From positions 4,866,785-4,930,784 of the forward strand of contig NZ_KB900609.1 of NCBI RefSeq assembly GCF_000379105.1: a stretch of DNA of 64,000 nucleotides, given 5' to 3'. The position numbers and the translations under genes were made by a program. Below the pieces are notes generated by a model that saw nothing but the letters and a program-made list of their open reading frames with translations, had not been told where the DNA came from and ran no database searches. Below, one piece after another: positions 2,123-8,268 of the stretch; the stretch's first letter is position 1; the number at the start of each line of letters is the position of its first letter. Source of the DNA: Methylobacterium sp. WSM2598. Lineage in GTDB: Bacteria > Pseudomonadota > Alphaproteobacteria > Rhizobiales > Beijerinckiaceae.

Positions 2123-2420
2123 CGCGACAAAGGCCGGGCCTGGCAAGCACGAACGCGCTGCCGCTCCGGGCCGTGAGGCAGACCCGCCCAGCGTGCCGCC
2201 TCCGCTCCGGAGCCGGCCCGCGATCTCCGGCCCGGCCGCCACCTCGCGCTGGAACTCCCGGGCCGCCTCGGCCGTTTGGAGGCATCTCATTGGAAGCCCC
2301 CGATGACACTGACTGGAGCCGGCCGAGGCTGATCCTCGCGCCGGCTTCGTTTTGCGCACCGCGCGCTGTCCGCGAGGTCTGCCGCAGAGGGATCGCTTCT
2401 CCGGCGGCCAAGGCGCCGCC

Positions 2421-2672
2421 TCAGCTCTTCATCGTGGGATTGCGTTCGCAGGTGCCGCCCACATGCTCCGCGATGGCTTCGAAGGCGGCGTCGATCGAGG
2501 GATGGTGCGCGGGGATGCCTTCGAGGGCGCCCTGGGGGTTCACCACGATGCTGACCTTGGGCGAATCCATGATTCTCTGAACCGCACCCAAGGAATATCC
2601 CGAGCGGTCGGTGAGCCACCAAGTGCTTTCGTCCTCCACGGGCGTGGCAATGACGTCCACGGTCCGGATCAT
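2421..2672 (-). CDS. Hypothetical protein, 83 aa, second gene of a coupled pair
   Basis: The ATG at 2672 overlaps the stop of the upstream gene as TGATG (one shared base), which supports both this start and translational coupling. The frame could be extended to a GTG at 2693, but the coupling makes that unlikely. The product begins MIRTVDVIATPVEDESTWWL and has no signal peptide or membrane segment. It has mixed alpha/beta character and a late Cys. I do not recognise the family. With its partner it could be a two-component small-protein module, but no toxin or antitoxin motif is visible. Confidence 0.6.
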   Translation of the reverse strand: MIRTVDVIATPVEDESTWWLTDRSGYSLGAVQRIMDSPKVSIVVNPQGALEGIPAHHPSIDAAFEAIAEHVGGTCERNPTMKS

Positions 2673-2965
2673 CACAGCATGAACTCCAAGCACTCCGAGG
2701 AATTGGCCAAGGGCTGGCCGTTCTTGGGTGCCATCTCAGGCGATGCGACCAGTTCAGCGCTTGAAGGGCAGGCACAGTGTGTGCCGGCGATGCTCTCAGC
2801 TCTTGCGAGTGCAGGGTCAGCGAGGCCGCGACGGTAGATCAACGCCACCGCATACCAGAACGCAGCACTGTCACCGCCAAGCCGTGCGATGCTCTCCTCG
2901 ATGCGTTCTCGCGCTTGCTGGGCAAGATCCTCTATCTGGGCAAGAGGCACCTCAAGGTCGGCCAT
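2672..2965 (-). CDS. Hypothetical protein, 97 aa, first gene of a coupled pair
   Basis: The product starts MADLEVPLAQIEDLAQQARERI, a helical N-terminus, and continues with a helix around AAFWYAVALIYRRGL and a polar C-terminus ending ECLEFML. The stop shares its last base with the ATG of the next gene, so the two are almost certainly co-translated. The open frame runs much further upstream, but this ATG fits the change from random-looking to protein-like composition. Family unknown. Confidence 0.6.
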   Translation of the reverse strand: MADLEVPLAQIEDLAQQARERIEESIARLGGDSAAFWYAVALIYRRGLADPALARAESIAGTHCACPSSAELVASPEMAPKNGQPLANSSECLEFML

Positions 2966-3164
2966 GGCTGCCTTCCGAATGTTAATCGCTGTAACATCAA
3001 CGTGGCAAGCAGCCATTGGTGCCGCGTGCATGGGGGCACGCAACCGGCACGTGAGGTTGATGGGAAGGCGATCGAGGCACGCCGTCCCCGTGGCGCGACG
3101 CGTGATCGCCCCTCCCGCGATCCCGGCTTCCTGCGGACCTTCGCCGAACCTGGCCACGGGGTGG

Positions 3165-3344
3165 GCAGGAAGGCCGGAGGCGACCGCAACGCGGCGCGCG
3201 TCGTACCGGTCAATCGCGGAGCTTCGCGCGGCCGGCATCTCCTCTGCCAGCGGCATCGCCCGCGCCCTCACCGAGCGGGGTATCCCGACCGCGCAGGGGT
3301 CGCCACGCGGGACATCCACCGCGGTGCAGAGGGTGCTGAACCGG
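3165..3344 (+). pseudogene. Relic of a serine recombinase (resolvase/invertase) C-terminus
   Basis: One frame reads SIAELRAAGISSASGIARALTERGIPTAQG and then TAVQRVLNR. This is the typical distal helix-turn-helix segment of small serine recombinases (in intact proteins, LRAAG..S..GIA.ALN.RGIPT..G..W....V..VL.R). The catalytic N-terminal domain is absent and the flanks are unrelated. It is a fragment of an old mobile element. Confidence 0.6.
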
Positions 3345-3671
3345 CCTGCCCGCCGCCCGAGGCCCGCCGCTCTCGGCCGCCTGCGGCAGGGACTGCTCGG
3401 TGATCCGGCGCGCGCGGTTGTGCCAGCCCGGCATGAAGCTTCGGCGCGCGCGAGTTCCCTCGGCCGCCGCGCCCGCGCGTCGGTCGCCGCCGTGTCCCCG
3501 CCCATCGGATCAGCTTTGAGCGCGAGGCCGCAGTCGCACCGTCCTGGCGTCCGACGCTCTCGTGCGGACACGTGCCCTGAAGCACAGATCAGTGCGGCCG
3601 TTTGGTGCAGTAACAGCACATGAAGCGGCGAATAGCGCTATTTCGAGCCTGATATTGAAGGATAAACGACG
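3345..3671. other. Intergenic, promoter side of the leader-peptide gene
   Basis: No supported gene. The last 70 bases (about 3600-3671) are distinctly A+T-richer than the surroundings and end in AAGGATAAACGACG just before the ATG at 3672, consistent with a promoter and a weak ribosome-binding site for the peptide gene. Confidence 0.4.
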
Positions 3672-3866
3672 ATGACCCACTCGAATGACGATCAGGAAAT
3701 CATGCCGCAGCAGCTGTCCGAGCAGGAGCTCGATGATGTGAACGGTGGAATGAAGTGGACCCGCGGTACTGTAAACTCAGACGTCGTTGATGCTCGCGGA
3801 GGATCGTACATGATCGCCGGGGTGCGGGTCAACTTCGGTGCGGATGGTAGCTTCACTTTCGGCTGA
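3672..3866 (+). CDS. Double-glycine leader peptide (bacteriocin/RiPP-type precursor), 64 aa
   Basis: The N-terminal 26 residues end in LSEQELDDVNGG, the canonical double-glycine leader (LSxxELxxVxGG) recognised and cut by peptidase-containing ABC transporters. The predicted core is 38 residues, beginning MKWTRGTVNSD and ending GADGSFTFG. It has no Cys and is rich in Gly, Val and Asp, so thioether or disulfide bridges are not expected. No C39-type transporter, modification enzyme or immunity gene is visible in the window. It is therefore an orphan precursor that would need export machinery encoded elsewhere. The leader assignment is strong; antimicrobial or signalling activity is inference. 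Confidence 0.7.
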   Translation: MTHSNDDQEIMPQQLSEQELDDVNGGMKWTRGTVNSDVVDARGGSYMIAGVRVNFGADGSFTFG

Positions 3867-4032
3867 AATACTCAATGCACCTGCATCCGAGGTCGGCTGA
3901 GCTCTGAACCATTGAAAGACACGGTTAGCGTGGTGCTGGCTTCGAAGGGGGCGGGACGCCGGGGCCTCTCGCAGACCCGGCGCCGAGACACGGGGACTCG
4001 GCCGTCCCGCTTTCACCCCGCCTTCGCGACGG

Positions 4033-4250
4033 CAAACCGCAACACCGCGCGAGCGGTTGGTTCTGCTCCCGCACGGTCCAGGCGCCCGCCAATCCGAAGC
4101 TGTTGCGCAGCCACGGCATCGCCTCGAAGCCCGGAATCGCGCGCCGGGCCGTATCGAACGACCGAAACCCGCTCACCCGCGGCATAGACCGCTGCACCCG
4201 GAAATGGTCGCTCCCGATCCCTTGCTGCCGGTGGAGGTCTCGTCCAGGCG
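4033..4250 (-). pseudogene. Transposase C-terminal fragment, IS6-like
   Basis: The minus strand reads SDHFRVQRSMPRVSGFRSF followed by DTARRAIPGFEAMPWLRN and FGLAGAWTVREQNQPLA. From memory this resembles the C-terminal end of IS6-type DDE transposases (DH-x-x-x-K-R, F-x-SF-x-TA, G-x-EAM). The rest of the transposase and any inverted repeats are absent. It is a decayed remnant; the exact IS family is less certain than its transposase nature. Confidence 0.55.
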
Positions 4251-4659
4251 CACGGCGCCCCGTTGCGGCTCGCGGAACCGGCGCGGGCGGCGCTCGATGG
4301 CGGGCGTGGAGGCGAGCGCCCACCGGATGATGGTGGATCCACCTCCATCCTCCGCTCCGGGAGTATCTCCTTATCTCTCGCGGCAGGTGAGCACGGCCCA
4401 GGGACCGATCGGATGGAGCGGTGACGCCAGGCCACGTGAACGCCAAGCGCGACCGACCGCCGCAATCCGCCACGGCCCCGCCGACGCCGCGCCGTCGCGC
4501 GGGACCCGCCGGGAGCCCCGGGAGGAGGGGAGCGGTGTCGTCATCGTGGCGGGCCGGGATCGGGTCGGTCTCCCCCGCCCGGCGCCGCGCCGCGGTCGGT
4601 CCGGAACGCCGGGCGGGTCCGGGCCGTTCTCGGGCGACACGCCATCTCGGGAGAATCCC
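4251..4659. other. 409 bp without a supported gene
   Basis: Open frames on both strands are long because of high G+C but show no family signature. The final bases carry CGGGAGAATCCC, which provides the ribosome-binding site for the small exported protein at 4660. Confidence 0.4.
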
Positions 4660-4863
4660 ATGCGCACCAGATTCCTGCTCGCCGCCGCGCTCGCCGGCTC
4701 CTGCCTCCTCGCGGCCGGCGGGGCCGAGGCCAAGGGCTGCCTGAAGGGCGCCGTGGTCGGCGGCGCGGCGGGCGCCGCCGCGGGCCACGGCAAGGCCGGC
4801 GCGGCGGCCGGCTGCGCCATCGGCCACCACAACGCCAACAAGGCGAGCCAGGGCCAGAAGTAG
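4660..4863 (+). CDS. Small exported glycine-zipper protein, 67 aa
   Basis: The first 24 residues (MRTRFLLAAALAGSCLLAAGG, then AEA) form a clear Sec signal peptide with an AEA-K cleavage site. The mature part is short, with two Cys and a Gly/Ala-rich stretch (AVVGGAAGAAAGHGKAGAAAG) that fits a glycine-zipper segment able to insert into or sit on a membrane. GGGAG precedes the ATG. It stands alone upstream of guaB on the same strand, with a 180 bp gap. Such small proteins are common in Methylobacterium; the role is unknown. Confidence 0.7.
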   Translation: MRTRFLLAAALAGSCLLAAGGAEAKGCLKGAVVGGAAGAAAGHGKAGAAAGCAIGHHNANKASQGQK

Positions 4864-6537
<1,674 letters not shown>

Positions 6538-6846: not shown

Positions 6847-6954
6847 GACGGTGAAGCTCCGGATCGGGGTCGAGGCCCTCCATCTCCTAAGGGAAGGTGA
6901 CGAAAGCTTGGCCGTTCTCCGCCCGATCGCGGGCACAAGCGCGGCCGTCTCGGG

Positions 6955-8268
6955 ATGACCCCGTCCGCCCGCCTCTCCGCCGCCATCGAGGTCCTGGCCG
7001 ACATCGGCGCGCGCCGCCGGCCCGCCGCCGACGCGCTCAAGGATTGGGGCCTCGCCCATCGCTTCGCCGGCTCGGGCGATCGGGCCGCGATCGCCGGCCT
7101 CGTCTACGACGCCCTGCGCCGGCGCGCCTCGGCGGCCTGGATCATGGGCGAGGACGCGCCGCGCGCCGTGCTGATCGGGTCGCTGCGCCTGCAGCGCGGC
7201 CTCGCGGGCGCCACGATCGCCGGGCTGTGCAGCGGCGAGCGCTTCGCCCCGGCTCCCCTGACCGAGGCGGAGCGCGCGCGCCTCGACACGGCGACCCTCG
7301 CGGACGCTCCCCTCCACGTCGCCGGCGACGTGCCCGAATGGGTGCTGCCCTCGTTGGTCGCGGCGCTGGGCGACGATCTCCTGCCGGAGCTGAAGGCCCT
7401 CGCCCGCCGGGCGCCCCTCGACATCCGGGTCAACACCCTGAAGGCGGACCGCGACCGCGTGGCCGCGGCGCTGGCGCACCTGAACCCCGCCCCGACCCCG
7501 CACGCGCCGGACGGCCTGCGCATCCCGGTGCCGGATGACGGGCGCGGGCCGGCGCTCCACGTCGAGCCGGAATTCCTGGAGGGCCTGTTCGAGATCCAGG
7601 ACGAGGGCTCGCAGCTCGCCGCGCGCCTCACGGGCGCGCGGCCGGGCGAGACCGTGATCGACCTCTGCGCCGGCGGCGGCGGCAAGACGCTGGCCCTCGC
7701 CGCCCTGATCGCCAACAGGGGCCGGCTCGTCGCCACGGACGGGGACCCGCGCCGCCTCGCCCCTATCCACGAGCGCCTGCGCCGGGCGGGCGCGGTCGCG
7801 GAGGTGCGCACGCCCCGGGGCGGGCGGGGCGCCCCCGACGCGCTGGCGGATCTCGCCGGCGCGGCCGACCTCGTCCTCGTCGACGCGCCCTGCACGGGCT
7901 CGGGCACGTGGCGGCGCAACCCCGACGCCAAGTGGCGCCTGCGCCCCGGCAGCCTCGCCGCGCGCCGCGCCGAGCAGGAGGCGGTCCTCGACCGCGCCGC
8001 GGGCCTGATCCGGCCCGGCGGCCGCATCGTCTACGTCACCTGCTCGCTCCTGCCGGAGGAGAATGACGGGGCGGTGGCCGGGCTGCTGGCGCGGCGCTCC
8101 TCCCTGCGCGCGGTCCCCCTCGCGCTCGCGCCGGATCTCGAGCCCGCGCTGCGCCGCACGGCCCACGGCATCCAGATGACGCCGGCCCGCACCGGCACGG
8201 ACGGGTTCTACGTGGCGCTGCTGACCCACGGGCAAGAGGGACGGAGCGCCCTTCCCCCGGCCGAATGA
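6955..8268 (+). CDS. rsmB: RsmB/NOP-type 16S rRNA (cytosine-C5) methyltransferase
   Basis: A 437-residue SAM-dependent RNA methyltransferase that adds a methyl group to C5 of a cytosine in 16S rRNA. The N-terminal 140 residues resemble the NusB-like RNA-binding region. The Rossmann core has motif I DLCAGGGGKT (237-245), motif IV DAPCTGSGTWRRNPD with catalytic Cys313, and motif VI VTCSLLPEEN with the second Cys363. Both cysteines needed for C5 chemistry are therefore present. The ATG at 6955 gives the normal length. The neighbouring lipoprotein gene is divergent. Alphaproteobacteria often have two RsmB-family paralogues, so the exact target base is not certain. Confidence 0.9.
   Translation: MTPSARLSAAIEVLADIGARRRPAADALKDWGLAHRFAGSGDRAAIAGLVYDALRRRASAAWIMGEDAPRAVLIGSLRLQRGLAGATIAGLCSGERFAPAPLTEAERARLDTATLADAPLHVAGDVPEWVLPSLVAALGDDLLPELKALARRAPLDIRVNTLKADRDRVAAALAHLNPAPTPHAPDGLRIPVPDDGRGPALHVEPEFLEGLFEIQDEGSQLAARLTGARPGETVIDLCAGGGGKTLALAALIANRGRLVATDGDPRRLAPIHERLRRAGAVAEVRTPRGGRGAPDALADLAGAADLVLVDAPCTGSGTWRRNPDAKWRLRPGSLAARRAEQEAVLDRAAGLIRPGGRIVYVTCSLLPEENDGAVAGLLARRSSLRAVPLALAPDLEPALRRTAHGIQMTPARTGTDGFYVALLTHGQEGRSALPPAE

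Follow-up and report, generated by a model that had tools for sequence, protein, structure and literature searches.

Several export systems for small peptides with a double-glycine (GG) leader have been described, and the following statements are based on those portions of the cited reports that were available to us. For the substrates of C39/PCAT (AMS) transporters, the ComA consensus comprises L-12, E-8, and L-7, and the residues V-4, L-7, and L-12 are seated in a hydrophobic groove of the C39 domain (PMC6363468). Mutagenesis of several pairs indicated that nonconserved leader residues are largely without a role in C39 binding, and RtgAB depends on an additional leader motif and differs from ComAB/BlpAB in the peptides that it exports (PMC7018657). 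Precursors unlinked to modification or export genes have also been described, and Methylobacterium sp. 4-46 was named for its unlinked cluster parts (PMC2887384). The EbfG1-4/PteB system of Synechococcus elongatus includes small secreted GG-motif biofilm proteins; EbfG secretion is efficient only with the Cys of the C39 transporter, and EbfG1-3 form amyloid (PMC4997328, PMC9981879). Class II microcins have leaders of 15-18 aa ending in GG or GA, and the producer carries an immunity protein or an efflux system (PMC10233263). The nap-island peptides of Neisseria are cationic, predicted to be alpha-helical, and act in autolysis (PMC11798529). Among the papers searched, none combined Methylobacterium with double-glycine leader peptides, or with a microcin and a C39 peptidase.

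The window, the whole 64,000-nucleotide stretch of Methylobacterium sp. WSM2598 DNA analyzed in this study, contains an ORF for a GG-leader peptide precursor in the following setting, in which G402 is another genome of the same species:

3601..3900, no strand: AT-richer segment, 46-58% GC per 100 bases
3657..3662, + strand: ribosome-binding-like GAAGGA, 9 bases before the ATG, read from the sequence and kept in G402
3672..3866, + strand: GG-leader peptide precursor ORF, 64 codons, ATG start, TGA stop
3961..4371, - strand: decayed relic of an IS6-type (DDE_Tnp_IS240) transposase gene, starting ~95 bases past the peptide stop

The sequence confirmed the initial proposal of a double-glycine leader followed by a 38-residue, Cys-free core. 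The leader, MTHSNDDQEIMPQQLSEQELDDVNGG, has 26 residues (3672..3749, + strand) and a C-terminal end of LSEQELDDVNGG, and the core, MKWTRGTVNSDVVDARGGSYMIAGVRVNFGADGSFTFG, spans 3750..3863 (+ strand) and has a pI of 8.3 and, in unmodified form, a mass of 4027.5 Da. With L-12, E-8, L-7, V-4, G-2, and G-1, the leader shows the hydrophobic -12, -7, and -4 residues and the GG of C39/PCAT substrates as well as the E-8 of ComA substrates, whereas position -15, which is also hydrophobic in such substrates, is occupied by the non-hydrophobic Pro. A hydrophobic -15 is seemingly not strictly required, because three or four conserved positions are given in the available part of PMC7018657. A single-sequence structure model placed a helix in the leader at residues 17-23 and short strands in the C-terminal half of the core (44-48, 51-55, and 61-63; block pLDDT 75-81, pTM 0.35). 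The core is perhaps beta-rich, which we treat as a lead only because the pTM of 0.35 came from a single sequence. A scan with the sigma-70 consensus found no promoter-like site on the peptide strand in 3300-4100, no terminator was found in the same interval, and Rfam gave no match in 2400-5100.

The 3672-3866 precursor resembles C39/PCAT (AMS) substrates in its leader (L-12, E-8, L-7, V-4, and GG), in its small size, and in the presence of C39 exporters in the genome; unlike them, it is unlinked to an exporter, its core matches no family above the cut-off, and its export is predicted. It shares with EbfG1-4 the GG motif and a non-Gram-positive host, and its core is likewise modelled with strands, although the ebfG genes form an operon and the likeness is one of description. 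By this analogy, and within the available parts of the reports, the amyloid-forming, biofilm-supporting Synechococcus proteins may be the nearest functional precedent. The GG-terminated leader and the genomic pairing of a C39 transporter with a HlyD-type partner are reminiscent of class II microcins as described in the accessible text, but the 26-aa leader exceeds their 15-18 aa and no immunity gene was recognized among the ORFs scanned. The NHLP/Nif11 precursors, as far as described in the accessible text of PMC2887384, are similar in their GG cleavage site, in their unlinked genes, and in their occurrence in Methylobacterium; by contrast, the window peptide matches none of their models, has a leader of just 26 aa, and has a core that is not glycine-zipper-like. 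The Neisseria nap island, in the available description, is likewise a small acquired region that encodes GG-motif peptides and is confined to few species, whereas the 3672-3866 core is near-neutral and is modelled with strands.

The ORF lies in DNA of unusual composition: its GC content is 56% and that of the 100 bases upstream is 52%, compared with 72.6% for the window, and the AT-richer segment suggests acquired DNA. At the DNA level, the transposase relic is 73-81% identical to other genomic copies, a longer one of which has a Pfam match, and it lacks an inner stretch that other copies have. Frames of a Mutator-type transposase (L010:18662-19863) end ~3.6 kb upstream of the peptide ORF. Downstream, 4957..6537 (+ strand) is presumably an IMP dehydrogenase (guaB)-like gene, judging from sequence resemblance. 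A resemblance to serine recombinases at ~3220-3420, seen by eye, was dropped, as Pfam did not support it in the frame scanned. No immunity gene or regulator was recognized among the nearby ORFs that were domain-scanned, which cover some of the neighborhood.

A strict motif (L[ST]xx[ED][LMI]xx[VIL]xGG, a start codon at most 30 codons away, and a core of 15-100 aa) occurred once in the window and in none of 150 simulated 64-kb sequences for each of two composition models. Counts of a looser motif (L-12/L-7/V-4/GG, an ATG within 40 codons, and a core of 15-100 residues), which are biased upward (motif picked post hoc, some DNA fetched for its matches, ~4 kb double-counted) and illustrate rather than test because the DNA was partly fetched for matches and the motif was seen first, were 2 with E-8 in 543,505 bases of own DNA vs 0 in 10 Mb of third-order simulated DNA, and 7 without E-8 in the same bases vs 8 in 10 Mb. 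One of these seven was an unrelated-looking frame in the window.

The G402 genome encodes an identical peptide, with two base changes in the ORF, both synonymous (~22% of the possible changes in the ORF are synonymous), and its flanks differ at 7/200 bases upstream and 4/200 bases downstream. The base after GAAGGA is T in the window and G in G402, where the block is collinear except for a small break at 3419-3442. G402 was located by a DNA search and stands outside the relatives, family, and class samples of the core searches described below.

No core homologue was found at E<=1e-3 in 98 other relatives. A family sample (298 genomes including the own one) contained no similar core, with a best other match of E 0.06; a weak match in it within the genus, in the relative G029 (E 0.12), was to a GG-leader precursor-like frame similar in the leader only (LSDTDLEAVNGG). 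The best match in a class sample (385 genomes including the own one; E 0.0024) fell within a 425-aa frame. The plasmid search gave one match and no core homologue (E 10, in a frame that we take to be acyl-CoA-synthetase-like), the phage search gave one match inside a ribonucleotide reductase gene (E 8), and no candidate core homologue was confirmed in viral contigs and genome contigs. Thirty-five matches were inspected in context (29 from the family sample and 6 from the class sample), and 11 of them were realigned directly. One of the 35, L016, was a GG-leader frame resembling the window peptide in the leader only; two others (L033 and L034) showed a loose leader pattern judged to be due to chance, and the remainder were seemingly fragments of unrelated frames. 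Within the collections searched, the 3672-3866 peptide thus occurs in a single species.

Family models gave a similar picture. The peptide was not among the three genome matches at E<=10 of the bacteriocin-type signal model TIGR01847 (cut-off 15.7 bits), none of the curated GG-leader models reached its cut-off on it, and the core had no family match above cut-off in Pfam and NCBIfam. None of the NHLP/Nif11 models in Pfam and NCBIfam matched it at E<=10, a search in which HMMER filters drop most matches above ~0.1.

The sequence-only reading had called for a genome-wide search for C39 transporters, and PF03412 gave four matches to C39 or C39-like ABC transporters, two of which have the catalytic Cys, His, and Asp; in the other two, the catalytic Cys is absent from its place, as judged by eye. 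The latter two are HlyB-type transporters above the TIGR01846 cut-off. One of the intact transporters, at ~5.80 Mb (L006:9534-11717), is of the NHLP type (above the TIGR03796 cut-off; Cys/His/Asp kept). It lies in an NHLP-type RiPP cluster (L006:1304-11717, ~5.79-5.80 Mb) with an NHLP HlyD and two B12-radical-SAM proteins, one of which is a RiPP C-methyltransferase above the TIGR03975 cut-off. Also in the cluster are a GG-leader ORF of 134 aa, which ends in VMCPW, and a DMATS-like prenyltransferase, and to our knowledge the combination of an NHLP cluster with a DMATS-type prenyltransferase is unusual.

The second intact transporter, at 0.96 Mb (L007:9352-11487), shows by eye the Cys (MECG), His (NHFVVL), and Asp (HDP), and a HlyD-domain ORF is directly upstream. 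It passes no cut-off among the best 25 of the 182 NCBIfam families matched, and we call it CvaB/RaxB-like, presuming so from its domain order. At E<=1e-100 the transporter was found in 65 of 111 genus genomes, own included, with at least 49% identity in 27. Two short precursors lie beside it in the own genome (L007:6728-6847 and 6913-7032, ~0.957 Mb), approximating M-[KT]-x-L-[DN]-x-x-x-[LM]-x-x-[VI]-x-GG plus a short core that is often Cys/Pro- or Gly-rich; the leader has ~15 residues (e.g., MTKLDLAALKAISGG), and several copies often occur. Twenty neighborhoods were fetched from the 26 genomes, other than the own one, with an identity of >=49%, and this precursor family was found in 18 of them (L101-L106, L108-L118, and L120); one of the two lacking it is a contig of 4.6 kb. 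Five scanned peptides (four of the operon family and one from 0.952 Mb) reached no Pfam or NCBIfam cut-off. These results indicate that an unnamed precursor family beside the CvaB/RaxB-like exporter is widespread in the genus. The operon precursors share the L-12/L-7/[VI]-4/GG spacing with the 3672-3866 leader, with a shorter leader of other sequence. Compared with G402, one of the two own copies has two replacements and no synonymous change, and the other is unchanged.

Searches of the own genome with GG-leader profiles found further ORFs at ~0.938, 0.952, 2.026, 3.812, and 3.814 Mb, all present in G402. The five share L-12, L-7, V-4, and GG with the window peptide, and the cores differ; including the 3672-3866 ORF, the species has at least six longer-leader GG ORFs with diverse cores. 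Across the six, four codons differ between the two genomes, all synonymously. The C39 gene at 0.959 Mb lies 7.6 kb from the ORF at 0.952 Mb and 21.5 kb from the one at 0.938 Mb, a proximity that links the longer-leader type with this operon more closely than would the window peptide by itself. Two sub-threshold TIGR01847 matches, at 3,812,112 and 3,814,202, are GG leaders; a third, at 4,267,515, had no GG leader on checking. The former two ORFs are separated by 2 kb (L164, ~12.0-14.3 kb), and the DNA around them holds several copies of the IS6-type transposase that also flanks the window peptide as a relic. A plasmid search with the 2.026-Mb peptide gave no match. An extra GG-leader ORF in G402 (LSEEQLEAVAGG; L202, G402:C1:2826692, 2.827 Mb) was not listed in the window's genome by the same profile at E<=10.

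In the genus, the longer-leader profile matched 7 of 110 genomes at E<=0.05, own and G402 included. In G001 and G387 the profile matched GG-leader frames whose leaders are longer, and its matches in G386, G009, and G019 look like chance. The neighboring frames L197 and L199 (G001:C45, ~14.7 and ~15.8 kb) have long leaders that we take to be Nif11-like, and short cores with similar aromatic/Gly-rich ends.

The relation among these leaders is one of spacing. When the window leader was excluded, a profile built from the remaining five longer leaders scored it at 12.2 bits (E 3.4, genome). Three more profiles lacking it were run on 543 kb; two omitted it from their best 14 and the third gave 7.8 bits (E 2.7). 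Because left-out profiles score the window leader weakly or not at all, the peptide seems to share its spacing with the other longer leaders without forming a close leader family. The remark that no transporter is in view holds for C39, as none of the four matches lies in the window, and the remark on modification enzymes holds for the scanned ORFs covering part of the window, among which no maturase was recognized. The sequence-only reading, which regarded the lack of a C39 transporter in the genome and of homologous leaders in relatives as contrary to its proposal, is not contradicted, because the genome has two intact C39 transporters and GG-leader peptides of the same spacing.

We consider it probable that 3672-3866 is a functional small gene for a GG-leader precursor exported in trans by a C39 transporter, which would be encoded elsewhere because the window has no C39 gene. 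The last 12 residues of the leader would form a short helix docking on the C39 peptidase domain via V-4, L-7, and L-12; the peptidase would cleave after GG, and the attached ABC transporter would export the 38-residue core. The exporter would most likely be that of the CvaB/RaxB-like HlyD and C39-ABC operon located at 0.96 Mb, at a distance of 3.9 Mb on the contig, with the NHLP-type exporter at 5.80 Mb as a less likely choice. The core would be small, near-neutral, perhaps beta-rich, and probably unmodified, as Cys is absent and no maturase was recognized beside the ORF. Precursors belonging to the CvaB/RaxB-like transporter itself are already present, which speaks against such export in trans. 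Moreover, export in trans cannot be assumed and the exporter named here is a guess, because RtgAB, in the available account, needs an extra motif and has its own peptide set. The earlier proposal of an orphan precursor with a distant exporter gains support from the intact transporters and the same-spacing peptides, and we infer the link to a given transporter, as well as cleavage and the lack of modification.

Other explanations account for parts of these data. A precursor left by a decayed mobile island, formerly beside its own exporter or maturase and since deprived of expression or export, would fit the low-GC DNA, the decayed IS6-type gene just after the ORF, and the Mutator-type frames upstream, as well as the lack of a recognized partner gene among the nearby ORFs scanned and of a core homologue in the collections searched. 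We regard such a relic as unlikely, since both strains retain an intact frame, ribosome-binding-like site, and protein, and the differences between them within the ORF are all synonymous whereas both flanks also have changed bases. This argument is of little weight because decay would have had little time to become visible between two close strains.

It is still less probable that the core is modified by a maturase encoded elsewhere, for example to a cyclophane at the W-T-R triplet, and then exported as a RiPP. The B12-radical-SAM proteins of the NHLP-type cluster and a weak match to the XyeA triceptide model TIGR04495 point in this direction, but the match of 14.8 bits is below the cut-off of 33, the NHLP cluster already has its own GG-leader ORF, and of the two SPASM proteins that PF13186 detected in the genome, one is PqqE and the other scores under every one of the 22 listed NCBIfam cut-offs. 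Membership in the XyeA triceptides was rejected on this score and because neither of the two SPASM matches is a Xye-type radical-SAM/SPASM maturase; lanthionine, and with it a lanthipeptide, is excluded by the Cys-free core. Equally improbable in our view is an incidental GG motif, whether in a small cytosolic protein or in an ORF that arose by chance. The lack of a homologue with a similar core would agree with this, as would the failure of the curated GG-leader models and left-out leader profiles to pick the peptide out, yet the motif, its spacing, the start site, and the strain conservation are jointly hard to obtain by chance, and five more ORFs with the same spacing occur in the genome.

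As a precursor presumably exported in trans, the 3672-3866 peptide is a new example of the known GG-leader secreted peptides, and the leading options for its role are bacteriocin-like activity and, once secreted, a structural or signaling function. The ORF in the window led to five further longer-leader GG ORFs and to the unnamed precursor family; the core-diverse GG ORFs, the intact exporters, and this family merit more attention than the single ORF. We tentatively raise the possibility, in our view a doubtful one, that one general C39 exporter serves in trans a scattered library of core-diverse, largely unmodified GG peptides, comprising at least six longer-leader ORFs and the two operon precursors. 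If so, the precursors would be acquired or would diverge separately, and the secreted set would change faster than the exporter, as a plug-in secretome of stray precursors instead of gene clusters. Precursors distant from their exporter escape cluster-based genome mining, and if one exporter serves all of them, leader rules, not gene neighborhood, would define the secreted peptides of these bacteria.
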